NCBI GenBank assembly: GCA_002084355.1 | Contig: NBLL01000058.1 | Coordinates: 1 to 39,642 of the forward strand | Direction of reading: 5' to 3' | Length of the DNA stretch: 39,642 nucleotides | Origin: Bacteroidetes bacterium 4572_128 | GTDB lineage: Bacteria; Bacteroidota; Bacteroidia; Bacteroidales; 4572-128 | Part shown: one piece after another, positions 242 to 39,540 of the stretch | Position numbering within the stretch: the first letter of the stretch is position 1 | How the letters are laid out: every line of letters starts with the position of its first letter | Translations under genes and position numbers: made by a program | The notes under the pieces: generated by a model | Databases searched by the model: none | Told to the model about the DNA's origin: nothing | What the model saw: only the letters and a program-made list of their open reading frames with translations

Positions 242-1917
242 ATGACTTTAATAGAGAAAATTTTAGCAAAACACTCAAAATTTCAAAGTGTAAAAGCAAA
301 TGAAATAATTGATATTTCTCTTGATGTTAGAGCAGCAAGAGATTTTGGCGGAGCTAATGTTATCAAACATTTAGAAGAAAATAATAGAAATATGCAGTAA
401 ATCAACAGATTTGTAGGAAGTTTGCAAGAGAAAAAGGTTTTAAAGTTTTTGACATTAATAGAGGTATTGGAACGCATACTTTCATAGAAGAAGGAATTGC
501 ATATCCTTATACAACTTCTGTAACAACTGATTCGCATGCAAATATACTTGGAGCAATAGGTGCTTTCGGACAAGGTATGGGTGATAATTTAAATGGAAAG
601 CGTCCGAAAAATATCACTTCTAAAGATATTATTTTAAATTTATTAAATATTTTTGGGGCAAATGAATTACTTGGATATTCTATAGAAATTCTTGGTGAAG
701 AAGTTGAGAAATTAACTTTAGATGAGAGAATAACTATTTCCTCTATGGCTACAGAAATGGGAGCGATTATTATTTTATTTACTCCAAATCAAGAGGTTAT
801 AGATTTTTGCGAAACAAGAAGCAAAAGAAAAATAGAAATAATAAAAAGTGATGAAAACGCTATTTATAAGAAAATTTATAATATTGATATTTCAAGTTTT
901 GTTCCTATGATTTCGCTTCCGGGTAAACCGCATGATACAATAGATATTTTGAAATTAAAAAAGATTAAAATAGATTCTGCATTTATTGGAAGTTGTACCA
1001 ATGGAAGAATGGAAGATTTGAGAGAAATTTCAAAAGTTCTACAAAATAAAAAAGTTGCTCCAGGTGTTGTTTTAAAAATTGTTCCTGCGACAGATGAAGT
1101 ATGGATAGAAGCATTAGATGAAGGTTTGATAAAAATTTTCAAAGATGCGGGAGCATTAGTTTCTAATGCTGGTTGCGCTGGTTGTGCTGCCGGACAAGTT
1201 GGACAAAATGGAGAAGGCGAAATTACTATCAGTACAGGAAATAGAAATTTTCCAGGAAAACAAGGAAAAGGCGAAGTTTTTCTTGCTTCACCGATAAATG
1301 TTGTTTCTTCTGCTGTTTCTGGATATATTACAAATTTTGAAAATATTCCAGCAAAGCCAAAAGTTTTTATGCCAAAAAATTCATTTGAAAATCTTGAAAA
1401 TTATAAGAAAAAAAATGAAAATTATGAGAAAAAAATTACAAAAATAAAAGGAAGAGTTTGGGTAATTAACGAAGACAATATTGACACAGATATGATTTTT
1501 CATAATCGTTATCTTGCAATTACAAAAATTTCTGAAATGGGACAATACACTTTTGATAATTTGAAAAATTATGAAGATTTTTCTAAGAAAGCAAAAAAAG
1601 GTGATATTATAATTACAAAAAAGAATTTTGGAAGTGGAAGTTCAAGACAGCAAGCAGTAGACTGTTTTAAAGCACTAGGAATTCAAGCTATTTTAGCAGA
1701 ATCTTTCGGAGCAATTTATGAAAGAAATGCTATCAATGCTGCTTTTCCAATTTTGACGTATAAAAATATTAATAAATTATTAATTGAAAATGGAGAAAAA
1801 ATAAGTTTAGATTTTGAAAGTGGTGAGCTAAAAAATTTAAATAAAAATTTAAGTATTTTCATAGGGAAATTCTCAGAAGTTCAATTGGAAATTTATAAAA
1901 ATGGAGGTTTATTTTAA
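242..1917 (+). CDS. Fused 3-isopropylmalate dehydratase/homoaconitase-family large + small subunit, with N-terminal frameshift and two apparent internal gaps
   Basis: MTLIEKILAKHS...LDVRAARDFGGANVIKHLEENN (frame 2), then YAVNQQICRKFAREKGFKVFDINRGIGTHTF.. TTDSHANILGAIGAFGQGMGD (frame 1), then LNGKRPKN..SMATEMGAIIILF.. IGSCTNGR, GCAGC, and C-terminal swivel domain NIDTDMIFHNRYL..FGSGSSRQQA. Confidence 0.85.
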
Positions 1918-5947: not shown

Positions 5948-6880
5948 ATGAAAATAATTATTCCTATGGCAGGAATGGGAAAACGTATGCGTCCACATAC
6001 TTTGACCGTTCCCAAACCATTAATTTCAATAGCAGGAAAAAGTATAGTTGAGCGTTTAGTTACAGAGATTTCAAAAATTGTTAAAGAAGAAATAGAAGAA
6101 ATTGCTTATATTATCAGGGAAGATTTTGGCGAAGAAGTTGAGAAAAATTTAAAAGAAATTTCTAATAAATTATCTGCAAAATCTTCAATTTATTATCAAA
6201 AAGAAGCAAAAGGAACTGCTCACGCTGTTTTTTGTGCTGAGAATTCCTTAGATGGAAATGTAATTATTGCTTTTGCTGACACTTTATTTAAGGCAGATTT
6301 TAATTTGAATAAAGAAAATGATGCTACTATTTTTGTGAAAAAAGTGAAAAATCCTAATGATTTTGGAGTTGTAAAAACTAATAAAGAAAATTTAATTACA
6401 GATTTTATTGAAAAACCTAAGGAATTTATTTCTGACCTTGCAATTATCGGAATTTATTTTTTTAAAGATGGTAAAAATTTAAAAAAAGAAATAAAATATC
6501 TGATAGATAATAAAATAATTGTTAATAATGAATACCAATTAACAGATGTTCTTGAAAATATGAAAGAAAAAAATATTTCTTTTAAAGCTGAAGTTGTTAA
6601 TGAATGGTTGGAAATTTCTAAATCTGCAGAAATTATAAATTCTGTGATTTTAGAACCGTCTTTTATAGATTGTAATGTTAAAATAGAAAATTCTGTAATT
6701 GCAAAACATGTTTCCATTGGAAAGTATACAAAAATAAAAAATTCTATAATTGAAAATTCTATAATTCAAGAAAATTCTATAATTGAAAATGCAAATATTA
6801 CAAACTCAATGATAGGAAATTTTGTAGAAATAAGAAATAAAAAAGTTGAAATGAGTGTAGGAGATTTTAATTCTTTTTAA
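5948..6880 (+). CDS. Nucleotidyltransferase (sugar-phosphate nucleotidyltransferase family) with apparent in-frame internal gap
   Basis: MKIIIPMAGMGKRMRPHTLTVPKPLI, AFADTLFKADF, NEYQLTDVLENM, C-terminal left-handed beta-helix repeats; expected W-(M/L)DCGNK block absent after NEW. Confidence 0.85.
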   Translation: MKIIIPMAGMGKRMRPHTLTVPKPLISIAGKSIVERLVTEISKIVKEEIEEIAYIIREDFGEEVEKNLKEISNKLSAKSSIYYQKEAKGTAHAVFCAENSLDGNVIIAFADTLFKADFNLNKENDATIFVKKVKNPNDFGVVKTNKENLITDFIEKPKEFISDLAIIGIYFFKDGKNLKKEIKYLIDNKIIVNNEYQLTDVLENMKEKNISFKAEVVNEWLEISKSAEIINSVILEPSFIDCNVKIENSVIAKHVSIGKYTKIKNSIIENSIIQENSIIENANITNSMIGNFVEIRNKKVEMSVGDFNSF

Positions 6881-7540
6881 ATTCATAAAAAATTGGCGAT
6901 TTTTGGAAAAAAAATTTTTTTTTAATATTTAAAATTCATAAAAAATTGGCGATTTTTGGAAAAAAATTTTTTTTTAATATTTAAAGTTCATAAAAAATTG
7001 GCGATTTTTGGAAAAAAATTTTTTTTTAATATTTAAAGTTCATAAAAAATTGGCGATTTTTGAAAAAATTTTTTTTTTTAATATTTAAAATTCATAAAAA
7101 ATTGGCGATTTTTTAAAAAAATTTTTTTTTTTTATATTTAAAATTCATAAAAAATTGGCGATTTTTAAAAAAATTTTTTTTTTTAATATTTAAAGTTCAT
7201 AAAAAATTGGCGATTTTTGGAAAAAATTTTTTTTTTAATATTTAAAGTTCATAAAAAATTGGCGATTTTTGAAAAAATTTTTTTTTTTAATATTTAAAGT
7301 TCATAAAAAATTGGCAATTTTTGAAAAAAAAATTTTTTTTTAATATTTAAAGTTCATAAAAAATTGGCGATTTTTGAAAATTTTTTTTTTTTTAATATTT
7401 AAAGTTCATAAAAAATTGGCGATTTTTGAAAAAAATTTTTTTTTTTTAATATTTAAAGTTCATAAAAAATTGGCGATTTTTGAAAAAATTTTTTTTATTT
7501 TGATATTTAAAATTCATAAAATAATTGGTTTTTTTTCAAA
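6881..7540. repeat. Tandem array, ~13 units of ~52-53 nt (ataaaaaattggcgatttttgAnTn taatattta)
   Basis: GG of core ggcgat at 6895, 6948, 7000, 7052, 7104, 7157, 7209, 7261, 7313 (ggcaat), 7366, 7418, 7472, 7527 (degenerate). Confidence 0.97.
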
Positions 7541-7596
7541 AAAAAATTTTTATGATTTTAAATCATAAAAATTTTCCCGTTTTTTTATTGAAAATA

Positions 7597-10937: not shown

Positions 10938-11818
10938 TTAATATGTTGTTGTCATATTATTAGGAACAACAATAATAAAATCTGCCAAATTCTCATTTTC
11001 TTTATTCCATTCATTAATATTTTCTTCCATTACCGTTGCTATGGTAATTATTTTTGATTTTGGTTTTTCTTCTTTTATAAAATAACATTAAAATGAAGAA
11101 AAGTTTTTTTCTTTTTCCAATATTCCAAAATAAAATATGACATAGAAGCATCTTTTGATGCCTGAGCTTCAGCGATGTGTATTTTTTGAGACTTTTTTTT
11201 TATCATCATTTTTTTGGGCATTTTACTTTTTTTCTTCTTCATTCCCATATTCATACTTTCCATTTTTTTGTAGCTTTCTAATTCCATGTTTGCTTTTATT
11301 GGCAAATCAGGTAAAAATTTTTTCGCTTCTTTGCTTAAATTTTTCAAACTTTTTAAGCCATTTTTTGCTACATAAGAAGCATAACGTCTCGGAATATTTG
11401 TCGCAACAAACTTTAATTTTTTTTCTTTTGCAAATTCGAAAAAAGGCTTGTAATCTGTAGAATAGTTTGGCCAAAGTTTTGCTTCGGTTTCAAAACTTCT
11501 TTGCTTTATTAAACCAGCAAAATATTCGTCTATTTTTAATTGGTCGTCTGTTTCAAACATTTCTGCACCAAGAATTAATTTGTCTTTTTTCTTTTCGTAC
11601 AGTTTTTTTGTCAGCTCAAGCTCCAACCAATGACAAATTGGATTATTATGCAATTCTCCAAAAAAAACAAAATCGCTTTCTGCAGACGATTTTATTACAT
11701 CTTCGAAATCAACTTTTTTACCTGTTTTTGTGTAAATTTGATAAGCCTTATAATCGCTTGATGAAAAAATCAAAATTACAAAAAACAATATTGAAATTAT
11801 TTTTAACTTATAAACCAT
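10938..11818 (-). CDS. ChaN-like/DUF399 lipoprotein-type protein, frameshifted near C-terminus by an internal gap
   Basis: FVFFGELHNNPICHWLELEL, AEMFETDDQ, YFAG, NIPRRYASYVAKNGL, AEAQASKDASMSYFIL; out-of-frame continuation YFIKEEKPKSKIITIATVMEENINEWNKENENLADFIIVVPNNMTTTY*. Confidence 0.82.
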
Positions 11819-13064: not shown

Positions 13065-14488
13065 ATGGAAAAAAAAGTAAGATTACGTTTTGCTCCAAGT
13101 CCAACTGGAGCTTTACATATTGGTGGTGTACGCACCGCTTTATTTAATTATTTATTTGCAAAAAAACATAATGGAGATTTTATTTTGAGAATAGAAGACA
13201 CTGACCAAAATCGTTATGTTGAAGGAGCGGAAAAATATATTATAGAATCTTTAAAATGGTGTAATATAAATTTCGATGAAGGAGTTGGAATAGGTGGCGA
13301 TTTTGCTCCTTACCGACAGTCAGAACGAAAAAAAAATTATAAAAAATATGCCGATAAATTATTAAAAGAAAATTTTGCTTACTACGCTTTCGACACATCT
13401 GAAGAATTGGAAAAAATGCGTGCGGATTTGAAAAAGGCAAAAGTAAAAACACCACAATATAATGGAATTACTAGAGTAAATATGCGAAATTCTTTGACTT
13501 TGTCTGCGGATGAAGTAAAAAAATTACTTGATAATAATGTTCCTTATGTTATTAGAATAAAAAGACTTATCATCTTGCAAATGTCGTAGATGATCATTTA
13601 ATGAAAATTTCGCACGTTATTAGAGGCGAGGAATGGTTACCTTCTTTGCCAACGCATAAACTTTTATATCAATATCTTGGATGGGAAAAAGATATGCCAG
13701 AATTTGCTCATCTTCCTCTTCTTTTAAAACCAAATGGAAAGGGAAAATTAAGTAAAAGAGATGGAGATAAAATGGGTTTTCCAGTTTTTCCTTTGCGCTG
13801 GGAAGATCCAAAAACAAAAGAAATTTCATCGGGTTACAGAGAAGATGGTTATTTTTCTGATGCTTTTGTAAATATGCTTGCTTTTCTTGGTTGGAATCCT
13901 GGAACGACAAAAGAACTTTTTTCTATGGAAGAGCTAATTAAAGAATTTTCTCTTGAGAGAGTTGGAAAATCTGGTTCTAAATTTGACCATAAAAAAGCTG
14001 AGTGGTTCAATCAAAATTATTTAAAAAGAAAGTCTAATGAAGAATTAACAAATTTATTTCAAGTTATTTTGAAAGAAAAAAATCATAATTTTTCTGATGA
14101 ATATGTTTCTAAGGTTTGTAATTCTATGAAAGATAGAGCAGTTTTCATAAAAGATTTCTGGGAACAAGCAAGCTACTTTTTTAAGTCTCCAACAGAATAT
14201 GATAAAAAAGTTATAAAAAAGAAATGGAAAAAAGAAACTCCGGAAATTTTAAATGAATTGAAAATTAAAATTCAGAAAATAGAAAATTTCAATAAAAATG
14301 AAATAGAAAAAGTTTTTAAAATTTATTTAGAAGAAAAAAGTTTAAAAATGGGACAAGTTTTAAATGTTTTTCGTTTAGCTTTAACTGGACTTTCTTTTGG
14401 ACCTTCTATTTTTGAAATTTGCGAGTTAATTAAAAAAGAAGAAGTTATCAATCGTATTGAAAAAAGTATAGAAATTATAGAAAAATAA
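13065..14488 (+). CDS. gltX: Glutamyl-tRNA synthetase, split by a frame-breaking internal gap
   Basis: [23 protein letters not shown] ... VPYVIRIK | [40 protein letters not shown] ... [10 protein letters not shown]; the block ending DDKVLMKSDGMP is missing at ~13565. Confidence 0.93.
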
Positions 14489-14514
14489 TTATTAAAAAAA
14501 ATTTTTTTAAAAAA

Positions 14515-15450
14515 CGTCATTTTTTTTTAATAATTTAAAAATTAAAATTTTGACGTTTTTTGAAAAAAAATTTTTTTTTAATTATAAAATTCATTAAAAA
14601 ATTGACGTTTTTTTGAAAAAAATTTTTTTTTTTTTAATTATAAAATTCATTAAAAAATTGACGTTTTTTTGAAAAAAAATTTTTTTTTAATTATAAAAAA
14701 ACATTAAAAAATTGACGTTTTTTTGAAAAAAAAAATTTTTTTTAATTATAAAATTCATTAAAAAATTGACGTTTTTTTGAAAAAAAAAAAATTTTTTAAT
14801 TATAAAAAACATTAAAAAATTGACGTTTTTTTGAAAAAAAAAATTTTTTTTTAATTATAAAAAACATTAAAAAATTAACGTTTTTTTGAAAAAAAATTTT
14901 TTTTTTAATTATAAAATTCATTAAAAAATTGACGTTTTTTAATTATAAAATTCATTAAAAAATTAACGTTTTTTTGAAAAAAAAAAATTTTTTTTTAATT
15001 ATAAAATTCATTAAAAAATTGACGTTTTTTTGAAAAAAAATTTTTTTTTAATTATAAAATTCATTAAAAAATTGACGTTTTTTTGAAAAAAAATTTTTTT
15101 TTAATTATAAAAAACATTAAAAAATTAACGTTTTTTTGAAAAAAAATTTTTTTTTTAATTATAAAATTCATTAAAAAATTAAAAAATTTTTTTTTTAATT
15201 ATAAAAAACATTAAAAAATTACGTTTTTTTGAAAAAAAAATTTTTTTTTAATTATAAAATTCATTAAAAAATTAACGTTTTTTTGAAAAAAATTTTTTTT
15301 TTAATTATAAAATTCATTAAAAAATTAACGTTTTTTTGAAAAAAAAATTTTTTTTTAAATTATAAAATCATTAAAAAATTGACGTTTTTTTGAAAAAAAT
15401 TTTTTTTTTAAATTATAAAATCATTAAAAAATTGACGTTTTTTTGAAAAA
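14515..15450. repeat. Tandem array, ~18 units of ~53-54 nt (aattataaaattcattaaaaaattgacgtttttttgAnTn)
   Basis: (g/a)acgttttttt core at 14552, 14604, 14660, 14714, 14768, 14822, 14877, 14931, 14965 (short unit), 15021, 15074, 15127, ~15220, 15274, 15327, 15381, 15434. Confidence 0.97.
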
Positions 15451-15454
15451 TTTT

Positions 15455-16438
15455 TTATATTATTTTTTTTGCAAAATTTGCTATTTGATTTTCATCAATT
15501 TTTTTTATACAAAAAAAGTGTTTTTTAGGACATTCTTTAAAACCAATTTTTGAACAAGGACGACATTTTAAATTTTTCACTTCTATAATTTTAGAATTTT
15601 TATCAGGTAAATATGGATACATTCCAAAATCGATGACAGTATTCCCCCAAATAGAAATAATTTTTTTATGAAAAGCTGCCGCTATGTGCATTAAACCAGT
15701 GTCGTGTGTAATTACCAAAGCAGATTTTTCTATAATTGAAGCCGATTGATTTATATTAAAATCTCCGCAAGTATTAAAAATTTCATTATTCCTTATAGAG
15801 GAAATTATTTTTTTTGATTTTTCTTTTTCTTCTTTTCCTCCAATTAAAACTATAGGGAAATCTATTTTTTCACAAATTGAAATAATTTTTTCTGTTGTTA
15901 ATTGTTTAGTTTTATGTTTTGCTCCAATTACAAAAGCGATATATTTTTTTGGAAAATTATCAAAATAATCAGATAAATTAACTTCATTCTTTTTACCAAT
16001 AAAATAATCTAAGCCTTTTTTATCTATTTGAATATCAAACTTTTGTAAAGTTTTTACATATCTATCAACTATATGTAAATTTGGCATTTTATTTATTTTG
16101 AAATTCACAAGCAAATATTTTTTTAAATTTAATTTTTCAAAAGAAAAAGACTTTTTTTTCAAAAATTTTTTTAAAATTGTACTTCTTAAATTATTGTGTA
16201 AATCTATAATATAATCAAAATTTTCTTTTTTTAAAATCTTAATAATTTCAAAAAGATTTTTATCAAAAAGATGAAATTTATCTACATAAATATTATTTTC
16301 CAAAACAGGAAAAAATGATTTTTTCGTCAAAAAATGAACTTCTGAATTTGAAATTTGTGTTTTCAAATAGCGAATTACCGGAGTTGTTAAAACAATATCT
16401 CCTATAGAACTAAAACGAATAATTAAAAATTTTTTCAT
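15455..16438 (-). CDS. Glycosyltransferase family 9 (heptosyltransferase-like)
   Basis: IRFSSIGDIVLTTPVIRYLK, DLHNNLRS, THDTGLMHIAAAFHKKIISIWGNT, LKCRPCSKIGFKECPKKHF. Confidence 0.9.
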   Translation of the reverse strand: MKKFLIIRFSSIGDIVLTTPVIRYLKTQISNSEVHFLTKKSFFPVLENNIYVDKFHLFDKNLFEIIKILKKENFDYIIDLHNNLRSTILKKFLKKKSFSFEKLNLKKYLLVNFKINKMPNLHIVDRYVKTLQKFDIQIDKKGLDYFIGKKNEVNLSDYFDNFPKKYIAFVIGAKHKTKQLTTEKIISICEKIDFPIVLIGGKEEKEKSKKIISSIRNNEIFNTCGDFNINQSASIIEKSALVITHDTGLMHIAAAFHKKIISIWGNTVIDFGMYPYLPDKNSKIIEVKNLKCRPCSKIGFKECPKKHFFCIKKIDENQIANFAKKII

Positions 16439-18573: not shown

Positions 18574-21537
18574 TTATAAATTTCCAATAATTTTTAAGAA
18601 CTTTGTAAGAAGTTTAAAATAAAGTGTAATATATAAGATTATTGCCATTAGCCATAAAACTAATAAATTAACCCAAAAAGTATCTAAAAAAACACCAAAT
18701 AATTTTTTTCTCGGAGCATAAAAATGAGATTTTAAAAAATTAGATTCTGGGTCATAAAAAATAGGTTCACTTTTCCTATGCAAATGTCCATCATATTCAA
18801 AAATCTTATTAGATTCATTTTTATTTTTTAATAAATCAGATAAACTTTCATTATAGTAATTTTTCTTCTTTTTTATAAATGCATCAATTTCTGTAGTATT
18901 TTTTTGCAAATTTCTAATTAATTTATCTTTTTTTTCATTTGCCCTATTATAACGTTTCATATAATAATTTTTTAAAATATTAAAAAAATTATTAACTTGT
19001 CTAAAAATATTCTTATTAATAGATTCTATCTCTAAATTATCTAAATCATCAAATTTTAATTTTTTATGATAAGATAATTCCTTAGAAATTTCATTTCTTA
19101 AAAGATTTAAATTAGAAATAACTTCTTCTTTTTTTTCTTTTATTTTTAAATTTCTTTCGCAAAAGCTTAATTTATTTTCTAATTTTTTTATCCAGTAATT
19201 TTTTTTAAATTCTGCATTACTCATTACTTTATCATAAAAAAAGAAATTTTTTTCATATTCATTATCTTTAAATTGTAAAACAGCAAGCGCCTCATAAGCC
19301 CAACGAGAAACCATCATTTCACCATAAAAAGGAATACTATTCGGCGAAGAAATTGTCGGATTAAGTTTATCGAATTTCACTATAATACCACTTAAAATAA
19401 TTTGTGGAATAATTAAAAATGGTATTAAAATATAAACAGTTACAGGTTTTTCAAAAGAATCTGAAATATTTAAACCGAGCATATTTGCAACAGAAAACGT
19501 AGAAAAAACAATTAAAAAATATTCTAAAAAAAGACCTCTTATTTCCATAATAAGATTTCCAACAATTACAAAACTCAAAGCTTGAAAAGCAGAAAGAGCA
19601 AATAAAATAGCAACCTTAGAAAACAAATAACTTGTTCTGCTGAGATTTAAGAATGCTTCTCTTTTTATATTTTCGCTGAAAACATAATCAGAAACATTTT
19701 TATCTATATCGAAATATCTTATTATAAAAGAAAGTAAAAAAGCTAAAAAAGCCGATTGCAAAAAATTAATAAACATATATTGTTTATTGGATAATTTTGA
19801 CAACACATCTCGTTTCAAAAAAACGAGAAATTGATTAAATTTATTTGGAATTTTAAAAGATATTTCTGGAAGTTCTAAAGTATTTGTCTCTTTTTTTTCT
19901 TTTAATGTTTCGGAAAATTCTTCAAAATGCTCAAACCATTCTATCGGAGTAGTTTTTCTTGTTTTTGTAAGATTTCCATATTCATCTAAAACTTGTGATT
20001 CAACAATATTAAAAATTTGCTCAGAATTTACATTCCCACAAACATGACAAACGCTTTCGTTCCAATCTGCTTGTAATATCCTTGATTTAAAATACATAAT
20101 TGAATCTATAGGATCACCCTTAAAAATCAAATAACCTCCAGTATCTAATATCATTAACTTATCAAACATTTTAAAAATGTCGGATGAAGGCTGATGAATT
20201 ACTATAAAAACTAATTTTCCTTTCAAAGATAATTCTTTTAAAAGGTCTAATATATTTTCAGAATCTCTTGACGAAAGTCCAGAAGTAGGTTCATCAAGAA
20301 ATAATACTGATGGTTCTCTTAATAATTCTAATGAAATATTCAAACGTTTTCTTTGTCCACCGCTAATTTTTTTATTCAGTGGATTTCCAACTTTCATATT
20401 TCTAATGTCATAAAGTCCAAGATTTAAAAGTAATTTTAAAACTATTCTTATGATTTTATATTGATTATAATCCTCGAAGCATAATTTTGCATTAAAAAAT
20501 AAATTTTGAAAAACTGTCAAGTCTTCCATCAATAAATCATCTTGCGAAACATAACCAATTACACCTTCTATTTTTTCTTTTTCTTTATGGATATCTACTC
20601 CATTAATTAAAACTGCTCCTTCAGTTGGTGGAAAAGTTCCATTTAAAACATTTAATAATGTGGATTTTCCCGCTCCACTTGCTCCCATTATTCCTACCAT
20701 TTTTCCAGACTCGCCAGAAAAACTTAAATTATGAAGTCCCTTAAAACCGTTTTTAAATTTATATTCTATATTATTTATATCAAAATTAATTTTAACTTTA
20801 GAATCATCTATTATAAACGCTCCAACAATATCACTAAAATAAATAGGTTTGATTTTAGGTGTTCTTATTGATGCACCAAAAGTTAAAACATAAATTTTAT
20901 TTTGTCTAACTAATTGACTACTAATTGATAATTCACTTTCTCCAGAATATTGCATTATATGAAGATCTGAAGGTTGAATATGAAGTATTTTTATTTCACC
21001 GAATAAATTTTCAGAAAAAATATGTTTTACTTCTTTATACTTATGTTTTTCAACATTATTTATTAATAAAACTTCTGGAATATCAGATACTTCTAAAGTA
21101 TTTATAATAAAATCGCTAATTTTTTTAAATTCATCTAATGGGATTAAAAAAGTATCCGCAACAGTACTAACAAATTCCATTTCTTGTTCGGAGATTTCTT
21201 CCTCTTTATCTGATTTTATAAATTCTAATAAAAGAATTACTAGTATATATTTTTGTCTTTGTGCTAATTCTTGGTTAATTTCTGTACAAATTTTTAAAAC
21301 TCTAACAGAGCTAAAAGCAAGTTGTTTTCTTACTTTACTAGTTTTTTTATTTCTTCTTCTTTTCTGGAACTTGTCTAAATATTCTCTAAAAACTTGGAGG
21401 TATTCTTTTACAAGTTCTTTATTTAATTGTTGTTCTAAAAAAGATTTAACAACAGAAATACGTTCTAAAATATCACTCTCTGGGCGAGCTATAATTGCAA
21501 ATAATTGCATTAATGCTCTTAAAATCTTCTGACTCAT
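18574..21537 (-). CDS. ABC transporter (ATPase fused to ABC-2-type membrane domain), with N-terminal TerB-like/accessory region and apparent in-frame internal gap
   Basis: GASGAGKSTLLNVL, ISGGQRKRLNISLELLREPSVLFLDEPTSGLSS, VFIVIHQPSSDIFK, multiple C-terminal TM segments; SDYVFSENIKREAFLNLSR lacks the expected TM-containing block. Confidence 0.92.
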   Translation of the reverse strand: MSQKILRALMQLFAIIARPESDILERISVVKSFLEQQLNKELVKEYLQVFREYLDKFQKRRRNKKTSKVRKQLAFSSVRVLKICTEINQELAQRQKYILVILLLEFIKSDKEEEISEQEMEFVSTVADTFLIPLDEFKKISDFIINTLEVSDIPEVLLINNVEKHKYKEVKHIFSENLFGEIKILHIQPSDLHIMQYSGESELSISSQLVRQNKIYVLTFGASIRTPKIKPIYFSDIVGAFIIDDSKVKINFDINNIEYKFKNGFKGLHNLSFSGESGKMVGIMGASGAGKSTLLNVLNGTFPPTEGAVLINGVDIHKEKEKIEGVIGYVSQDDLLMEDLTVFQNLFFNAKLCFEDYNQYKIIRIVLKLLLNLGLYDIRNMKVGNPLNKKISGGQRKRLNISLELLREPSVLFLDEPTSGLSSRDSENILDLLKELSLKGKLVFIVIHQPSSDIFKMFDKLMILDTGGYLIFKGDPIDSIMYFKSRILQADWNESVCHVCGNVNSEQIFNIVESQVLDEYGNLTKTRKTTPIEWFEHFEEFSETLKEKKETNTLELPEISFKIPNKFNQFLVFLKRDVLSKLSNKQYMFINFLQSAFLAFLLSFIIRYFDIDKNVSDYVFSENIKREAFLNLSRTSYLFSKVAILFALSAFQALSFVIVGNLIMEIRGLFLEYFLIVFSTFSVANMLGLNISDSFEKPVTVYILIPFLIIPQIILSGIIVKFDKLNPTISSPNSIPFYGEMMVSRWAYEALAVLQFKDNEYEKNFFFYDKVMSNAEFKKNYWIKKLENKLSFCERNLKIKEKKEEVISNLNLLRNEISKELSYHKKLKFDDLDNLEIESINKNIFRQVNNFFNILKNYYMKRYNRANEKKDKLIRNLQKNTTEIDAFIKKKKNYYNESLSDLLKNKNESNKIFEYDGHLHRKSEPIFYDPESNFLKSHFYAPRKKLFGVFLDTFWVNLLVLWLMAIILYITLYFKLLTKFLKIIGNL

Positions 21538-21689: not shown

Positions 21690-23412
21690 TCATTTTTTAA
21701 AAAATAAAAATATCAAATATCCAATGGAAATTCCAACAATTAAAGTAATTAAATATGTTGCTATTGCTTTTTTATCATGTGAACAAGTATCTTCTTTTTT
21801 TGAAATAATAATTTTTTTATCAATACTTTTTTTATTCTCTAAAACAATATGTTTTTTATTATCTTTTGCTTTTTGTTTTATTCTTGATATAATAGTTTCT
21901 TTTCCATAATCTTTCATTCTTAATTCTTCACCTCTTTTTGCTACTACATCACGATAAAAATCTTCGCTATATCCACAATATTGTGGCACACCTTTTTCAT
22001 CTTTTTTATAACCGTCAAGATATTTAGTAAATAATTCCTGTCCAAATTTTATCCATCTTTGATGAGTTTCTATAGATTGTTTTTTAGAAAAAGAAGTAAT
22101 ATATCCAAGAGCAGCATTTTTATCTTTTTCAAATAATTTAGTAGCTTCTTCATCTACTTTTATAATTTCTTTTAAAAAAGAAAATTCTAATTCTCTTTGC
22201 ACTTTTTTTAAATCTATAATCATTTCATTATAACGAGTATAAACGTAATTAGAAACAAAATTAAATGCCCAAAATGATGCGTCCCAGGTAAAATTTTTTA
22301 AACTTCCATTGCCTTTTCTTAAATTATCTGGTACACTTTTTATACCGCAATACATAGGTACATAAACTGTCATATCAGTATCATCAACACCAAACACTTA
22401 CACTATCAACTTTCCAAACTAAAGGTCGCCATCTATAAGGTAGTCCAAAAGGTCCAGCATCTTTTCCCTTAGTCATATCCATTGGTGTTCCTTCAAAATG
22501 ATCTCTCATTAGTTCCATTAAATCGTGAGTACTAATTTTTTTATCTGGTTTTATCCAAAGTGGCATTCTTTCTGCACCGGTTACTCCATCTACATAATCA
22601 AAATATTTTTTGCAATTCTTATTTACTCTATTAAACATTGCCCAAACTCTCGCTTCGCAAAAACGTAAAGCACCATAATCTAAGGGAGCATAAGCATCAG
22701 CAAAACTAAAATCTTTATCTTTTCCATTAAAATATCCTTTTTTTCTTGCGAAAGAAATAACATCTTTTGCATATAAACAGTTTTCTTTGTCATTTAGAGG
22801 AAAAGTTGTTATTCTTGCTTGATTTGCGTGTCCAGAAATATAACCGTCAGGAATTCTACGTGCAACCCAAACTGCACCTTTATTTCCAACACCTTTGCCA
22901 ATAAAATCCATTATCCATGCTTCGTTTTTATCAATTATAGAAAATGATTCTCCAGTGCTGTAATAACCATATTCATTAACTAATTCGTTCATTACTTTTA
23001 TTGCTTCTCGTGCTGTTTTTGCACGTTGTAAAGTAATGTAAATCAAACTACCATAATCAATTAAACCTGTTGTGTCTTGCAGTTCTTTTCGTCCTGTGTA
23101 AGTCGTTTCGCCTATTGCAAGTTGGTACTCGTTCATATTTCCAACCACAGAATAAGTGTGCAAAACTTGTTTTATTGCACCTAAGTATTTTCCTGTGTCC
23201 CACTCAAAAACTTTAAGCAAAGCTCCTTCGGGAAAATCTCTCGATGGAAAATAATATAATTCTCCATACATATGCTGAGAATCTGCGGCATAAGTTATCA
23301 TATTAGAACCGTCAGCAGAAGCACCACTTGTAATAATGAAATTAGTACAAGCAAAATTATTTCCTATAAGTAATAGGAAAAAAATAAATAAACTAAAATT
23401 TTTTTTTTTCAT
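21690..23412 (-). CDS. C69-family dipeptidase, secreted, C-terminal TM anchor, split by frame-breaking gap at ~22393
   Basis: CTNFIITSGASADGSNMITYAADSH-like N-terminus, YGELYYFPSRDFPEGALLKVFEWDTGKYLG, DAGPFGLPYRWRPLVWKVDSV | FGVDDTDMTVYVPMYCGIKSVP. Confidence 0.92.
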
Positions 23413-23932: not shown

Positions 23933-24484
23933 ATGAAATTATCTGTTATTCCTTATGGCTCATTTATTTTGAGAAAAAACAATTCAGAAATTAATGAAAA
24001 TTATAAAGATCTTGATAAACTTATAAAAGATATGTTTGAAACTATGTATTTTGCAAATGGAGTTGGTCTTGCTGGTCCCCAAGTTAATAAAAATATTCGT
24101 TTATTTGTTATAGATGCTTCGGTTATGGAGGAAGATGACCCAAAAGCAAAAGATTTTAAACAAGTTTTCATAAATCCAAAAATTATTAAAGAAGAAGGAA
24201 AATTATGGAAATATAAAGAAGGATGTCTGAGTGTTCCAGAGATAAGAGAACACGTTAAGAGAAAATCCATTATTCATATAGAATATTTTGATGAAAATTT
24301 TTATTTTCACAAAAAAACTTATGACGGAGTAATTGCAAGAATTATTCAACATGAATGTGATCATTTAGATGGTATTGTTTTTGTAGACAAAATTTCACCT
24401 ATAAAAAAGCGATTATTAAAAAGTAAATTAAAAGCCATTTCAAAAGGTAAAATTTCAACAGATTATAAAATGAAATATAATTAA
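23933..24484 (+). CDS. def: Peptide deformylase
   Basis: GVGLAGPQV, EGCLSVPEI, QHECDHLDGIVFVD. Confidence 0.97.
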   Translation: MKLSVIPYGSFILRKNNSEINENYKDLDKLIKDMFETMYFANGVGLAGPQVNKNIRLFVIDASVMEEDDPKAKDFKQVFINPKIIKEEGKLWKYKEGCLSVPEIREHVKRKSIIHIEYFDENFYFHKKTYDGVIARIIQHECDHLDGIVFVDKISPIKKRLLKSKLKAISKGKISTDYKMKYN

Positions 24485-24990
24485 AAAAAATTTTTTCAAA
24501 AATCGTCCAAAATTTTAATGTTTTTTATTTTGAAAAATAAAAAAAATTTTTCAAAAATCGTCCAAAATTTTAATGTTTTTTATTTTGAAAATAAAAAAAT
24601 TTTTTCAAAAAATGTCCAAAATTTTAATGTTTTTTATTTTGAAAATAAAAAAAAATTTTTTCAAAAATCGTCCAAAATTTTAACCTTTTTATTGAAAACA
24701 ACATTGGAGTTTTTTTTTAAACTCCAATGTTTGATGTAATGTTATGTTAAATTTTTTTCGAAAATTGTCCAAAATTTTAATAATTTTTAATAATTTTTAA
24801 TTTCAAAATAAATTTTTTTTCAAAAAACGACGAAATTTTAATGATTTTAAATATTAAAAAAAAATTTTTTCCAAAATCACCAATTTTTTTATAATTATTA
24901 TTAAAAAAAATTTTTCTTCAAAATCACCAATTTTTTTATGAATTTAAATATTTAAAAAAAAATTTCCAAAATTCGGCAAAATTTTTATAT
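24484..24990. repeat. Intergenic repeat array, ~4 near-identical then diverging units (ttttttcaaaaatcgtccaaaattttaatgttttttattttgaaaataaaa)
   Basis: Repeated tcaaaaatcgtccaaaattttaatgttttttattttgaaaa. Confidence 0.9.
24700..24731. terminator. Hairpin aacattggagtt/aactccaatgtt
   Basis: 12-bp inverted repeat with T-rich loop, embedded in the repeat region. Confidence 0.7.
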
Positions 24991-25094
24991 TTTTTAAATT
25001 TCAAAAAATTGTATAAAAAAATAATAATAAAAAGCAACTTTTTTTTAATTTTTACGTCATTAAATTATAAAACAAATTTTAATTTAAAAAAATT

Positions 25095-25916
25095 ATGAAA
25101 TTTAATTTATTAAGAATATTCTTAGTTTCCATTTTTGCAATTCCTTTCTTTATTATTTCTTAAAATTTAGCTTCAGGAGAAAATGACATTTTCTTTTTAG
25201 TCTCTTCGAGGGGAATAACAGAAGATTTAGAAGGCGATAAAAAAGATGGAGAATGTCCAAATGTAACATTTCAAGGAAATGCTTATCCAGCGGAAATGAT
25301 AATTGATTTTGGTGATGGATGTCAATTCAGAGAAAAAGAAAGAAAAGGAATTGTTAGAGCTAATTTTTCTCAAACTTGGGATGGAACTGTAGGAATGAGT
25401 GTAGTAATTACAATGGAAAATTATTTTGTTGATAATGTTAAGCATCAAGGAACTATGACTCTTACTTACAATGGAGATGAAGGAAATCCTTCTTTTACTA
25501 TGGTTGCCACAGATAATAAGTTGATATATCCTGCTGACACTTCTGGAAATAATCCTGAAGTATCTTGGTCGTCTGCAAAAACATTTACTTGGTTAAATGG
25601 TTTTGACGGTTTTACGGGAATAGAAAGTGATAATGTTTTTAATGACGATATTTTTACTATCAGTGGAACAACTAACGGAGTAAACAGAAATTCTAATGAT
25701 TTTTCTGTAATAATTGCAGATGATAATCCTTTATATTATGATATTAGTTGTGAATACATAAAATCTGGAATAATAACAATTACTGAAACTAGTGATACAG
25801 TGAGTGTTACGACTATAGATTTTTCGCCAAGCGAAGGTGAAACAACTGGAGATTGTGATAATCTTGTTACTATCACAACAGATAATCTTCCAAGCATAAC
25901 TACTAATTTAGAGTAA
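25095..25916 (+). CDS. Bacteroidota secreted/lipoprotein-like hypothetical protein, in-frame TAA at 25161
   Basis: MKFNLLRIFLVSIFAIPFFIIS* then same frame NLASGENDIFFLVSSRGITEDLEGDKKDGECPNVTF..IIDFGDGC..RKGIVRANFSQTWD..NYFVDNVKHQGTMT..GNPSFTMVATDNKL; recalled as a recurrent Bacteroidota family. Confidence 0.65.
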
Positions 25917-25994: not shown

Positions 25995-27416
25995 TTAGTG
26001 TTTAAAATGTCTTGTTCCTGTGAAAACCATAGACATTTTTTTTTCGTCGCAAAATTTTATAACAGACTTATCTCTTATAGAACCACCCGGCTGAATTACA
26101 AAACGAATACCAGAATTATAAGCAATTTCTACAGAATCAGAAAATGGAAAAAAAGCGTCAGATGCCATTACAGAATTTTCTAAATCAAAATTAAAATGTT
26201 TTGCTTTTGCTATCGCTTGTTTCAATGCATCTACACGAGAAGTTTGCCCTACTCCACTACTTAAAAGTTGCTTATTTTTTGCAAGAACTATAGCATTAGA
26301 TTTTGTATGTTTTACAATTTTATTAGCAAAAAGTAAATCAGAAACTTCTTTAGATTCTGGAAAAATTTTTGTTACCGTTTTTAAATCTATTTTTTCTTCT
26401 GTTTTTAAATCTTTTTCTTGATAAAGAAAACCATTAAGAATAGTCCTAAATTGTTCTTTTTTGAAATTTTTATTCCCTTTTAAAACAAGAATAATTCTAT
26501 TCTTTTTTTGTTTTAAAATTTCTAAAGCATCTTCTTCGTAAGACGGTGCAATAATTACTTCAAAAAATATTTTATTAATTTCTTCAGCGGTTTTTTTATC
26601 TAAATTTTTATTACAAACCAAAACTCCACCAAAAGCAGAAATATTGTGTTTCAAAATTGCAAAAGTTGTTTCTTCAAATTCGGAAATTAAATTTAATGCA
26701 GCATCGATATCCAATAAATTATTGTAAGAAATTTTCTTTCCATTTAATTTATTAAAAATTTTTTCTAAATTTCCAGAAAAATAAGCCTCTTGATGAGGAT
26801 TTTCACCATATCTTAAAATGTTTTTTTTAGAAAAATAATTTAAAATATTTCTATCATAATCAGATGAGATAGAAAAAGATTTTCTTGCAAACTCTTTTCT
26901 CTCTTCTATACTTGTAATTCCATTATTTTTATCAAGAATTTTTATAAATTCTAAATATTGATTTTGAGAGGAAACAACAAAAACATCTTTATAATTTTTT
27001 GCAGAAGCACGTATCAAAGAAATTCCTCCGATATCAATTTTTTCTATAATTTCATCTTCACTTTTAGAATTTCTTACAGTTTCCTCGAAAGGATATAAAT
27101 CAACAATAACAAGATCTATATTTGGAATATTAAATTTTTCCAATTGTTTTTTGTCATTTTTATTTTCATTTCTTGCAAGTATTCCTCCGAAAATTTTCGG
27201 GTGTAAAGTTTTTACTCTACCATCCATTATCTCTGGAAAAGAAGTAATATTTTCAACAGAAGTAACTTTTACTCCTAAATTTTTTATAAATTTCTCAGTT
27301 CCACCTGTAGAAATAATTTGAACGTTTAAGTCATTTAATTTTCTAACTATTTTTTCCAAATTTTTCTTATAAAAAACAGAAATTAAAGCACTCTTAATTT
27401 TTTTTAAATTTTTCAT
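25995..27416 (-). CDS. purH: Bifunctional IMP cyclohydrolase/AICAR transformylase, with apparent in-frame internal gap
   Basis: ALISVFYKKNLE, STGGTEKFI, FPEIMDGRVKTLHPKIFGGIL, GGISLIRASAKN, RYGENPHQEA, SVMASDAFFPFSDSVE; AILKHN-ISAFGGVLVC lacks the usual NACG...AGDP block. Confidence 0.95.
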   Translation of the reverse strand: MKNLKKIKSALISVFYKKNLEKIVRKLNDLNVQIISTGGTEKFIKNLGVKVTSVENITSFPEIMDGRVKTLHPKIFGGILARNENKNDKKQLEKFNIPNIDLVIVDLYPFEETVRNSKSEDEIIEKIDIGGISLIRASAKNYKDVFVVSSQNQYLEFIKILDKNNGITSIEERKEFARKSFSISSDYDRNILNYFSKKNILRYGENPHQEAYFSGNLEKIFNKLNGKKISYNNLLDIDAALNLISEFEETTFAILKHNISAFGGVLVCNKNLDKKTAEEINKIFFEVIIAPSYEEDALEILKQKKNRIILVLKGNKNFKKEQFRTILNGFLYQEKDLKTEEKIDLKTVTKIFPESKEVSDLLFANKIVKHTKSNAIVLAKNKQLLSSGVGQTSRVDALKQAIAKAKHFNFDLENSVMASDAFFPFSDSVEIAYNSGIRFVIQPGGSIRDKSVIKFCDEKKMSMVFTGTRHFKH

Positions 27417-29031: not shown

Positions 29032-29954
29032 ATGAAAAACATTATTCTTATTATTTTTATCTTCTTATTTACTTTAGGTGTTAAAGGTCAAAGCATTCGT
29101 TTTTCACAATTTTATTCTTCTCCTTTATTACTTAATCCTGCCCTTACAGGCAGTAGTAGTTGTTTATTTAGAGGAGGTTTGAATTACAGAAATCAATGGG
29201 CAGATATTTCTCCTTATGTAACAACTTCAATATTTGCTGACGGAAAAATTCCTTCGAGACATCCAAAACGTCAATGGATGGGAGCTGGAATTATGGTTTT
29301 AAACGATGAAGTTGGAGACGGAAGTTTAACAACAACTCGCGGTTCTTTACTTTTTTCATATACTAAAGGTTTAAGCAGAAATAATTCTTTATATTTTAGT
29401 CTGGGAACAGGAATTACTGTTGTAAATAAAAGCGTAAATTATTCTCTACTCTTATTTGATGAGCAACTTATTATTACGGTAAATTTAAATATACTCTTGG
29501 TATTAGTATGGACCATTTAAATATTCCTCAGGCTTCTTTTTATTTTGAAGGAGGAGAAAGAATAGGAATTGCAACTGTTGTTCACGGTGGAGCTTCTGGA
29601 ACTATAACTCGTTATTTTGGAATACGTCCAGAATTTATGATTTTATCTAGAAATGGAGCAATAGAAATTGATTATGGTGCAAATGCTTTTTTTAAAATGA
29701 ATAGAGATCTTCGTTTATATTTTGGTCTGTGGAATAGATGGAATAGAGATTTAATAGAAGTAATAGGTTTTGATTATGAAGGAGTTACATTTCTTTTAAG
29801 TTATGATGTTAATTTTGTAAAAGGTTTGAGGAGTGCAAATAATTTCAAAGGAGGAGCAGAAATTTACATTACTCGTAAATTTGGTTGTAATTTAAGAAAA
29901 TGGGCTAAATCAGTCCAATGTCCAAAATTTGGTGATGATTTTTATCTATATTAA
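29032..29954 (+). CDS. PorP/SprF-family type IX secretion-associated outer membrane protein, split by frame-breaking gap
   Basis: FSQFYSSPLLLNPALTGS, YRNQWADISPYVTTSIFADGKIP, GAGIMVLNDEVGDGSL, FSLGTGITVVNKSVNYS.. | GKFKYTLGISMDHLNIPQASFYF. Confidence 0.88.
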
Positions 29955-32984: not shown

Positions 32985-33590
32985 TTTAAAATTTTGACGT
33001 TTTTTTGAAAAAATTTTTTTTAACATTAGAGATTTTGTTTTTAACAAATGTTTGTTTTATAATTTTTGAAAAACATTAAAATTTTGGACGAATTTTGAAA
33101 AAAATTTCAACAGATACAAACCTAAATTTTTTCAAAAAAATGAATTCTTTGAGTTTGTATATTGGAAAAAATTTATTAAAAATAAATTTTTTCCAAAAAA
33201 CGCTAAAATTTTACGAATTTATAAAAAAAAAAAATTCAAAAACGTCAATTTTTTACGAATTTTATAATTTATAAAAAAAATTTTCAAAAAAACAGGTAAT
33301 TTTTTGGGTTTGTATCTGTTGAAAAAATTTTTCAAAAAAACCAATGATTTTATTTGAAATTAAAAAAAAAATTTTTTTCAAAAATCGTCTAAATATTTTA
33401 ATATTTTTATTTTGAAATTAAAAAAAAATTTTTTCAAAAATCACTCAAAATTTTAATGTTTTTTATTTTGAAATTAAAAAAAAATTTTTTCAAAAATCAC
33501 TCAAAATAAATTAAAAAAAAATTTTTTCAAAAATCACTCAAAATTTTAATATTTTTTATTTTGAAAAAATTTTTTAATAATTCGTTCAAA
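32985..33590. repeat. Long intergenic region of degenerate repeat units (ttttttcaaaaatcactcaaaattttaatgttttttattttgaaattaaaa and relatives)
   Basis: Several copies of ttttttcaaaaatcactcaaaa between 33420 and 33550, plus looser gacgtttttttgaaaaaattttttt-type units upstream. Confidence 0.85.
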
Positions 33591-33593
33591 ATT

Positions 33594-34347
33594 TTAATAT
33601 TTGCAATATAAATGTTTTACAGCTTGCAAATAAATATAAATTTTTTTCAAGTTAATAAAATTCAAAGCATCAAGTCCGTCCTAACTTTTCAAGAATCATA
33701 AATTTCCAGTAAGCCCCAATTATGTATCCTCCTTTTATTGTATTTGTGTTGTTTTTTTCAATTGCCGCAAGCATAGCCGCCAGAACTTGATATTCTGGAT
33801 TACCAGTTGGATTTACAGATTTTTTATATTCCTGTAGGAAAAAATAAGGTTTTTTAGGTTCATTTATGCCAGTTGCAACAAAAAAGTCTGGATATCCTTT
33901 CAGTGTCCAATTATTTAATTTACAGCTTATAGAATATTCATACCAATCTTTTATTTTTTTATTCCTAAACTTCACTTTATTTAAAATAAAACCTATAAAT
34001 TTTACCGTTAAAGTTTGTTCATTATAACTGTTCAAATAAAATTTATTTTCTTTTATTAATTCTTTTAAAAAACTTTTTTCTTCCTCATAGAGTTCATATT
34101 TATACGAAAACCATTCTTCGAATTTAGTTTCATTATCTACCTGTTGAATATTTACAATCTCCATTAATTTCTCTAAAGTTGCCTCTCTAAAATTTAAACT
34201 TTTTTCAAGTTTTTCATATAAATTATATTCTTCTTCAAATAATTCATAAATTTCGGATTTACTTATTAAGTTATTATCTGTTTTATTAATTAATTTTTCT
34301 AATAGATTTCTCAGTAAATTTGTTACTTTTTTAGACTCTTTTTCCAT
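33594..34347 (-). CDS. PD-(D/E)XK nuclease-like protein, paralog 1, frameshifted by a 29-nt gap near C-terminus
   Basis: GYPDFFVATG..PYFFLQEYKKSVNPTGNPEYQVLAAMLAAIE; alternate-frame tail DGLDALNFINLKKIYIYLQAVKHLYCKY* matches paralog 2. Confidence 0.75.
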
Positions 34348-34389
34348 GAAAAAATTTTTTTTTCAAAAATATAAATAAAATTTTAAATT

Positions 34390-35181
34390 TTAATATTTGC
34401 AATATAAATATTTTACAGCCTGCAAATAAATATAAATTTTTTTCAAATGTTCAAAATTCAAAGCTTCAAATCCATCGGAAACAAAATATTCATAATTCCC
34501 ATTTTCTAATTTTTCCAGTATCATAAACTTCCAGTAAGCACCAATTATATATCCTCCTTTTATTGTATTTGTTTTGTTTTTTTCAATTGCTGCAAGCATA
34601 GCCGCCAGAACTTGATATTCTGGATTACCACTTGGATTTACAGATTTTTTGTATTCTTGAAGAAAAAAATAAGGTGTTTCGGGAACTTCTATTCCTGTTG
34701 CGACAGCAAAATCAGGTTCACCATTAAAAGTGTAACCGTTTAATTTACAAGTCATTTTATGTCCATACCAATCTGTAAAATATTCAGTATCAAAATCAAT
34801 TTTATTTAAAATCTGTCCTATAAATTTTACCACCAATTTTGTTTCGTTGTAATTTACAATAGATAAACGATGTTTTTTTATTAGAGATAAAAGGAAATTA
34901 TTTTCATCGTCAGAAAGTTTATATTTGTAGGAAAACCATTCTTTAAATTTTTCATTATTATCTATTTGTTTAATATTTACAACTTTTTTCAAATCTGATA
35001 AATTTGCATATCTAAAAGTTATTGTTTTTTTCTTATCTATGAATTCTAACAATTTATATTCATTTGCCAACCACGTTTCAAATTTCACTTTATCGCTTTC
35101 CTTATCTAAATTAACAATTTTTATTAATCTTTCTAAGGTCTCAATACTAAATTCTAATTTTGTTTTTAAGTATTTTTTCAT
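34390..35181 (-). CDS. PD-(D/E)XK nuclease-like protein, paralog 2 (intact)
   Basis: GEPDFAVATG..PYFFLQEYKKSVNPSGNPEYQVLAAMLAAIEKN; tail ENGNYEYFVSDGFEALNFEHLKKIYIYLQAVKYLYCKY. Confidence 0.75.
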   Translation of the reverse strand: MKKYLKTKLEFSIETLERLIKIVNLDKESDKVKFETWLANEYKLLEFIDKKKTITFRYANLSDLKKVVNIKQIDNNEKFKEWFSYKYKLSDDENNFLLSLIKKHRLSIVNYNETKLVVKFIGQILNKIDFDTEYFTDWYGHKMTCKLNGYTFNGEPDFAVATGIEVPETPYFFLQEYKKSVNPSGNPEYQVLAAMLAAIEKNKTNTIKGGYIIGAYWKFMILEKLENGNYEYFVSDGFEALNFEHLKKIYIYLQAVKYLYCKY

Positions 35182-35285
35182 AATTTAAAAAATTATTTAT
35201 TTATATAAAAAAAATTTTTTCAAAAAAAGCATTTTTTTTTAATTTTTTTAAAAAATGTTTTTTTTATTTGCAAAAAAAATTTTAT

Positions 35286-37738
35286 ATGCAAAAAAATTTA
35301 GTAATTGTTGAATCTCCTGCGAAAGCAAAAACTATAGAAAAATTTTTAGGAAAAGATTTTATTGTAAAGTCTAGTTTTGGACATATTAGAGATTTGTCGA
35401 AAAAGAATTTTGGAATAGATATAAAAAATAATTTTAAACCAAATTATGAAATTTCTCCTGATAAGAAAAATGTTGTTTCTGATTTAAGAAAAATATCAAA
35501 AAAGACAGAAATTGTTTGGCTTGCTTCTGATGAGGATAGAGAGGGAGAAGCAATTGCTTGGCATTTATCGGAAGTTTTAAAATTAAAAAAAGAAAAAACC
35601 AGACGAATTGTTTTTAATGAAATTACAAAAAATGCCATTTTAAAAGCAATTAAAAATCCTCGTTCTATAAATCAAGACCTTGTTGATGCTCAGCAGGCAA
35701 GACGAGTTCTTGACAGATTAGTTGGTTTTGAAATTTCGCCAATTCTTTGGAAAAAAGTTAAACCTTCGCTTTCTGCTGGACGAGTTCAATCTGTTGCGGT
35801 TCGTATTATAGTTGAAAGAGAAAGGGAAATAATAAATTTTAAATCTGTTTCTTCTTATAAAATCATTGGATTTTTTAAAATTTTCAATAAAAATGAGAAA
35901 AAAAATTTTTCTTTCAAAGCAGAAATTTTAAAAAATATAGATACAAAAAAAGCATCTTTTGAATTTTTGCAAATTTGTAAAAATTCAACTTTTAAAGTTG
36001 GTGATATTGAAAAAAAACCATCAAAAAAATCTCCATCTCCTCCTTTTACCACTTCTACTTTACAACAGGAAGCAAGTAAAAAATTAAATTTTTCCGTAAA
36101 ACAAACTATGGTTGTTGCTCAGAAACTTTATGAAAAAGGGAAAATTACTTACATGAGAACTGATTCTGTAAATCTTTCTGAACAAGCAATTCAAAATGCA
36201 AGTGATGAAATTATAAAGAAATTTGGGGAAAATTATTCACAAATTAGAAATTATAAATCTAAAATAAAGGGCGCACAAGAAGCTCACGAAGCAATACGTC
36301 CAACGTATTTTGAAAATATAAATGTTTCGGCAAATTATCAAGAACAATCTTTGTATAATTTAATTTGGAAGCGAACAATTGCATCTCAGATGTCTGATGC
36401 GAAATTGGAAAAAACAAAAATAATTATAGAGATTTCCAAATCTGATAAAAATTTCGTCGCAAAAGGAGAAGTAATTTTATTCGATGGATTTTTGAAAATT
36501 TATAGTGATTCTATAAATAATGATAAAAAAGAGGAAAAAAATATCCTTCCAATTATGAATTTGAATGACAATTTAATTATGGAAGAAATTAATGCTACAC
36601 AAAAATTTTCTAATCATCTGCCTCGTTTTACTGAAGCACGTCTTGTGAAATGGATGGCAAAAAACGAGATATTTTTCAATTGGTTTTAAAAAATAATGAA
36701 ATTAATGAAATAAAAAAAGAAGAAAATTTTGGAAAGGAAAAATCAAAATTATTTCCTACAGATATTGGAATGCTTGTAAATGATTTTCTCATAGAAAATT
36801 TCACTGATATTATGAACTATAATTTTACAGCAAGTGTTGAAAAAAACTTTGATAAAATAGCAAAGGGGAAAATTTTATGGAGTAAAATGTTAAAAGAATT
36901 TTATGAGCCATTTCATACGAAAGTTGAAGAAATTGATAATATTTCCGAAAGAAAAATCTCTGAAAGATTCTTAGGTATAGATGAAAAAACGAATAGAAAA
37001 ATTTTTGTACGAATTGGTCGCTATGGAACAATAGTGCAGCTTGGCGAAAAAAGTGATGAAGAAAAGCCTGTTTTTGCAAATTTAAAAATGGACCAACATT
37101 TAGAAACTATAACTTTTGAAGAAGCAAAAAAGTTATTAAAAGATGGAAATGAAGGTAGAAAACTTGGTATAGACCCAAAAACGAAAAAAAATATTTCTGT
37201 TCGTATGGGACCTTATGGAGCAATGGTTCAAATGGGTGAAAAGATAAAAGATGAAAAACCGCAATATGCGAGTTTGAAAAAAGGACAAAATATAAATACA
37301 ATAAGTTTAGAAGAAGCGCTGGATCTATTGAAATTGCCAAGAACATTGGGAGATTTTGAAGATGAAAAAGTTGTAATTGGAATTGGTCGTTTTGGTGCTT
37401 ATGTTAAACATAATAATCAGTTTGTTTCTTTGAAAAAAACCGATGATCCTCTTAAAATTAATTTAGTTCATGCAATTGAATTGATTAAAGAAAAAAGAGA
37501 AAAAGAGAAAAAGAAAATTATAAAAACTTTTGAAAACGAGGATTTAAAAATAATTTATGACAGATGGAAAAACCCTTGTATTTTGTATAAAAAGAAATAT
37601 TTTCGTTTGCAAAAAGATTCTGATTTTAAAAATTTAAGTTTAGACGAATGTTTAAAAATTGTTGGTGCTGATAAAAAACTTGCAAAAAATAATAAAAAGA
37701 AAGTTGTTAAAAAAAGAAAAACAAGGAAAAAATCGTAA
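35286..37738 (+). CDS. topA: DNA topoisomerase I, split by a frame-breaking internal gap at ~36650
   Basis: LVIVESPAKAKTIEKFLG, WLASDEDREGEAIAWHL, SAGRVQSVAVRIIVEREREI, ITYMRTDSVNLS, AHEAIRPT, FTEARLVK | DGKKRDIFQLVLKNNEI..LFPTDIGMLVNDFL; C-terminal repeated domains. Confidence 0.95.
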
Positions 37739-37768
37739 TTTTTTTTTTATAATTTAAATTATAAATTT

Positions 37769-38742
37769 ATGTTGCAAAGAGAGTTATATTCTGAAAACAT
37801 TGCTATGGAAGATAAAGATTTTAATTTTCATAAATTATATTTTTTGAAATCTTTGCGTACTTCCCCAAAAAGCAAAAATAAATATAAAAGGTCTTTATTA
37901 TCTCCTTTGCGTTATGCCGGAGGTAAAAGTCTTGCTGTAGGAATAATTTTAGAATTAATTCCAAATGATGTAAAAAAATTATTTCACCTTTTTTTGGCGG
38001 TGGTTCTTTGGAAATTGCTTGCTCCAGTGGAGCAAAAATTAAAGTTATTGGTTTTGATATTTTTGATATTCTTGTAAATTATTGGAAGATTCAAATTTCA
38101 AAACCAGAAGAATTAGCAAAAATTTTATCAAATTTTACAGCAACAAAAGAAAGTTTTAAAGAGATAAAAGAAGTTTTAAAGAACCACTGGAAAAAAATTA
38201 AAATGATTGAAAATAAAATAGAATTAGCTGCTCATTATTATTTCAATCATAATACGTCTTACGGTCCTGGTTTTTTAAGTTGGCCATCATCTGTTTATGT
38301 ACAAGAAAAAAGATATAAATCTATGGTTGAAAAAGTTAGGAAAACTAAATTAGAAAATTTAGAAGTTAATTGTGATTCTTTTGAAAATGTATTTCCAAAA
38401 TATGAAAACGATTTTTTTTATTGCGACCCACCGTATTTTTTAGAAGGAGACAGCAAAATGTTCAAAGGAATTTATCCACAAAGAAATTTTCCAATTCATC
38501 ATAACAATTTCAATCATAAAAAACTAAGAAATTTACTTTTAAATCATAAAGGAAAATTTATATTATCTTATAATGATTGCTCGACAATTAGAGAATGGTA
38601 CAAAGATTTTAATTTTATAGATGTTTCTTGGCAATATACTATGGGACAAGGAGAAACACGAATTGGAAAAAATAGGATAAATAATAATGTTAATCATGTT
38701 AAAAAATCTCACGAAATTTTAATTTTAAATTATAAATTATGA
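37769..38742 (+). CDS. Dam-like adenine-specific DNA methyltransferase, one-nucleotide frameshift at an A7 tract
   Basis: LLSPLRYAGGKSLAVGIILELIPNDVKK then alternate frame IISPFFGGGSLEIACSSGAKIKVIGFDIFD.., catalytic DPPY (FFYCDPPYFLEGDSKMF). Confidence 0.88.
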
Positions 38743-38755
38743 GAAAAAAAAATCG

Positions 38756-39177
38756 ATGTCCAGTGAAAAAGCAAAAAATGTAAGAGCAAAAGGACATCTT
38801 AGAACATTTCTAAACAAAGCTATGTTTAACGGTGGAGAAGTTGATTATTTAACAGTAAAACATAATAATTTATTTCATATTTTTTATTGTAAAGATGTGA
38901 TAAATGTATTTGGAGATAATCTTGAAATTTGTAATTCGAAAGCAAGAAAGGGACGAACAAATGAAACTTCAGAACAAAAAGTTTTGTTCAAATATAATGG
39001 AAAAATTTAGGAGAGCTTGAAATAAGAAATAGCAATTATAATCATTTCAGAGAGGTTTTATTTGTTATGAATAAAATTAAGGTTTTGGAATTGTTATTTG
39101 AAAAAATTAAAATTGTGGAAAATTTTAATGATAAAGTTTTACTTTATGGAGCAAGCAATAAAAGATTTAAAAAATAA
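38756..39177 (+). CDS. Hypothetical protein, possible partner (restriction?) of the methylase, one-nucleotide frameshift near 39005
   Basis: MSSEKAKNVRAKGHLRTFLNKAMFNGGEVDYLTVKHNNLFHIFYCKDVINVFGDNLEICNSK..KYNGK then alternate frame NLGELEIRNSNYNHFREVLFVMNKIKVLELLFEKIK..ASNKRFKK*; start is 14 nt after methylase stop. Confidence 0.5.
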
Positions 39178-39194
39178 AAATTATATATTTTTTG

Positions 39195-39540
39195 ACATCA
39201 AATATTGGTGTTGAAAAAAAAACCTCCAATGTTAAAATATTAAAAAAATTTTTTTTCAAAAAAACGCCGAAACTTTAATATTTTTTAATTTCAATTAAAA
39301 AAAATTTTTTTCAAAAATCGTCCAAAATTTTAATATTTTTCGACAAAACAACATTGGAGGTTTTTTTTTTAACCTCCAATGTTTCGACATCAAACATTGG
39401 TGTTCAAAAAAAAACCTCCAATGTTAAAAAAATTTTTTTTTTCAAAAATCGTCCAAAATTTTAACATTTTATAATTTCAAAATAAAAAAAATTTTTTCAA
39501 AAAATGACCAAAATTTTAATATTTCTTATAATTAAAAACC
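39195..39540. repeat. Intergenic repeat units plus interspersed ACATTGGAGG hairpins
   Basis: ttttttcaaaaatcgtccaaaattttaatattt units, same type as 24484-24990; cctccaatgtt at 39220s, 39373 and 39415s. Confidence 0.85.
39350..39383. terminator. Hairpin aacattggagg/cctccaatgtt
   Basis: 11-bp perfect inverted repeat with T-rich loop. Confidence 0.75.

Follow-up and report, generated by a model that had tools for sequence, protein, structure and literature searches.

An undocumented assembly gap as the best explanation for 29 nt missing from one of two tandem PD-(D/E)XK-like paralogs in a Bacteroidales draft genome

Assembly errors account for many purported bacterial pseudogenes, and these vary with the assembler, the platform and the coverage (PMC11017572). 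The closest described cases are those of Cooley and Wright 2024 (PMC11017572), in which conserved genes are broken in one assembly and intact in a nearly identical genome, with coverage and the choice of assembler implicated. The locus described here resembles these cases in that respect. However, while the earlier cases are mainly single-base frameshifts or internal stops, here blocks of 29–106 nt are missing from the genes of a fragmented draft genome. The window, i.e., the whole stretch of 39,642 nt analyzed here, is an entire contig of that genome, which comprises 2.6 Mb in 151 contigs and is 73% complete. Its nearest relative, hereinafter G001, is apparently the Bacteroidales MAG GMC9.metabat2.18 (contig JAOZVH010000073.1), a congener from a different sample and the sole same-genus genome among the relatives searched. 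This identification is based on a protein search of named genomes, in which that MAG had a protein identical to paralog 2 (described below), and on agreeing contig coordinates.

Two nuclease-like paralogs and the junction in one of them

The features at the center of this analysis are:

33594..34347, minus strand: paralog 1, a PD-(D/E)XK-like gene broken by the loss of 29 nt (sequence read, open reading frame, comparison with G001, profile match)
33680..33681, minus strand: the junction in paralog 1 at which the 29 nt are missing (gap comparison with G001)
34390..35181, minus strand: paralog 2, intact, 263 aa (open frame; 100% identical protein in G001)

Both paralogs match the PADLOC profile PDLC01472 (PD-(D/E)XK nuclease-like) with moderate E-values of 1.6e-6 and 7.7e-8. 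The match covers their PDF...QEYK region and fits a predicted D...ExK active site. From this match across the catalytic region we treat them as putative members of the PD-(D/E)XK nuclease-like family. They retrieved no Pfam or NCBIfam family above the cut-off, and their own family is strongly amplified in the genus: it occupies about 35 places in this AT-rich genome, many of them with stops, and is multi-copy in G001 too.

The reading frame of paralog 1 (33670..34347, minus strand) is open up to ...FMILEKLGRT and its stop, giving 225 aa. The original prediction had placed the absence of 29 nt at 33680/33681 and had proposed a frame break with the downstream tail conserved in the shifted frame. 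Both points hold: the absence is read directly from the sequence, the G001 orthologue contains the bases, and the conserved tail DGLDALNFINLKKIYIYLQAVKHLYCKY continues past the junction in another frame. Exactly 29 nt are missing, and their placement is ambiguous by one base (33680-33682). Within this contig the absent 29-mer is present only in paralog 2 (34478-34506); in the rest of the genome it recurs in less exact copies in other family members. It lies inside a 32-nt exact repeat common to both paralogs. This repeat could have helped break the assembly at paralog 1 but offers no account of the single-copy gene losses described below.

The paralog pair had also been taken to demonstrate the gap without recourse to homologs from beyond the window. 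This was too strong, since with so many family copies bearing stops a single broken copy could be a real pseudogene, and the pair cannot decide the matter. Under such a reading, a real 29-bp deletion would have turned paralog 1 into a pseudogene, as with other copies of the multi-copy family that have decayed, and the stops at several of the family's places indicate that copy decay occurs or appears to. Against this, some of those stops may come from the same assembly artefact, to which a part of the broken family copies may be owed. The choice between artefact and decay is settled by the outside orthologue in G001.

Comparison with the congener across the window

Up to the junction, the window and the G001 locus share 99.66% identity over 2,970 bp; beyond it, the alignment resumes past an extra 28-29 nt in G001. 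An exact gap comparison places 29 additional nucleotides in G001, with 59 of the 60 flanking bases identical. Both paralogs are intact there, with 264 and 265 codons from stop to stop. Leaving the gap aside, only two nonsynonymous changes separate paralog 1 from its intact orthologue, and the gene has no second indel; the copy is nearly invariant, with too few differences around the junction for pN/pS to be scored. This record lacks the further lesions and the relaxed selection expected of a pseudogene.

More broadly, comparison with G001 recovers 12 clean losses in the window, each of 29–106 nt, and every gene broken in this way is a single intact frame in the congener. Besides the junction in paralog 1, they are:

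385..386: 64 nt missing from an aconitase gene (G001 comparison)
587..588: 66 nt missing from the aconitase gene (G001 comparison)
6612..6613: 69 nt missing from a nucleotidyl transferase gene (G001 comparison)
11085..11086: 34 nt missing from a ChaN-like haem-binding gene (G001 comparison)
13563..13564: 106 nt missing from gltX, glutamyl-tRNA synthetase (G001 comparison and Pfam)
19667..19668: 96 nt missing from an ABC-2 type transporter gene (G001 comparison)
22395..22396: 98 nt missing from a peptidase C69 gene (G001 comparison and Pfam)
25161..25162: 69 nt missing from an unnamed 300-codon gene (G001 comparison)
26642..26643: 69 nt missing from purH (G001 comparison)
29465..29466: 97 nt missing from a PorP/SprF gene (G001 comparison and Pfam)
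36650..36651: 91 nt missing from topA (G001 comparison and Pfam)

The Pfam matches to the window fragments of gltX, peptidase C69, PorP/SprF and topA skip the corresponding profile positions, and at the topA joint the aligned topA genes of other families of the order (e.g., that of G005) are longer by roughly 91 bases. Among the affected genes, topA, gltX and purH are essential or core genes. The junction in paralog 1 is thus one of 12 losses of identical appearance that extend to core genes, which, together with the near-invariance of the copy, makes its origin by pseudogenization very unlikely.

Two further features of the window were noted. A very AT-rich dispersed repeat, with units near 50 nt and many matches across the two genomes of the genus, forms intergenic arrays at about 6890-7570, 14500-15460, 24480-25000, 33000-33600 and 39240-39540. 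Separately, the region of about 33700-39192 shares 99-99.7% identity with G001, against mostly 92-96% for the remainder of the window, a step that suggests either recent exchange or a mixed-strain contig.

Genome-wide losses and the character of the joints

Alignment of 68 kb of this genome to G001 revealed 28 losses, or about one per 2.4 kb, and a second contig displays the same pattern as judged from the search table alone. The losses are one-sided: the reverse events, with bases missing in G001, are restricted to repeat arrays or one intergenic site and spare unique coding sequence. Relative to G001, 11 broken genes have no indels other than these losses. The codons flanking most losses are still under purifying selection, with pN/pS on either side of about 0.03-0.2, the exceptions being one 26-codon stretch at 0.40 and the unscorable paralog 1.

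The joints themselves look random. Microhomology averages 0.68 nt as against 1.05 nt expected at random placements, which further argues against a deletion origin for the break in paralog 1. The lost lengths range from 29 to 106 nt and are divisible by three in 9 of 28 cases, as by chance; a minimum of 29 nt would have P = 0.0002 were the lengths uniform from 1 to 106. Mismatch clustering at the joints, a sign of strain mixing, was tested for and is absent.

That the losses are frequent, clean and within otherwise conserved genes might recall a biological process of segment removal or bypass, such as programmed excision, translational bypassing or recoding, whereby the genes look gapped yet work. 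Bypassing cannot restore the 29 nt, as they are absent from the DNA of the locus rather than skipped. The G001 genes are ordinary and ungapped, the joints have no microhomology beyond chance, and the lengths ignore the reading frame. Excision with storage of the segments, or their relocation to another contig, is countered by a search of the genome for the lost pieces of single-copy genes, which returned no convincing copy; hence, we rejected relocation and regard segment removal or bypass as exceedingly improbable. We accord no better a chance to the source population truly carrying about a thousand recent, clean deletions of 29–106 bp across its genes. If that were true, it would point to a genome-wide segment-removal process of a new kind.

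A very probable silent assembly gap and its consequences

We therefore conclude with high confidence that the missing 29 nt reflect an undocumented assembly gap, an artefact rather than biology: the near-identical G001 locus has the bases, the losses occur throughout the genome and in one direction, the joints are random-looking, and selection still acts on the frame to either side. That portions of topA, gltX and purH should all have been truly lost, in many recent events with neither signature nor frame preference and in only one of two close genomes, is not credible. As for the original prediction that the 29 nt exemplify a window-wide gap phenomenon, the phenomenon is real and indeed extends genome-wide; its best explanation is an assembly artefact. 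As G001 is a congener from a different sample, a few of the losses could still be real strain deletions.

Mechanistically, we posit that contig ends separated by 29–106 bases were fused without an N placeholder, so that the bases between them would have been lost and the frame broken wherever the lost length was not a multiple of three. The responsible step would probably be the joining of contigs on the evidence of read pairs, or a join whose N run was lost; the placeholder would accordingly have been either lost or never written. That the sizes are bounded may reflect a limit imposed by the read library, whereas their lower bound of about 29 nt counts against this account. Wholesale stripping of Ns by the database was also weighed. 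About 390 kb of this genome contains a single N run (42 nt, at L060:10582-10623, inside an AT-rich tandem array), and its survival indicates that placeholders are not universally absent from the genome. A scan of 20 contigs from 17 other genomes of the order, 323 kb in all, revealed no N run.

With a loss roughly every 2.4 kb, neither the gene calls nor the completeness estimates of this draft genome are reliable, and its congener G001 serves better as a reference. We consider the gap question for this window closed: the broken genes in this assembly are not to be taken as pseudogenes, split genes or recoding.
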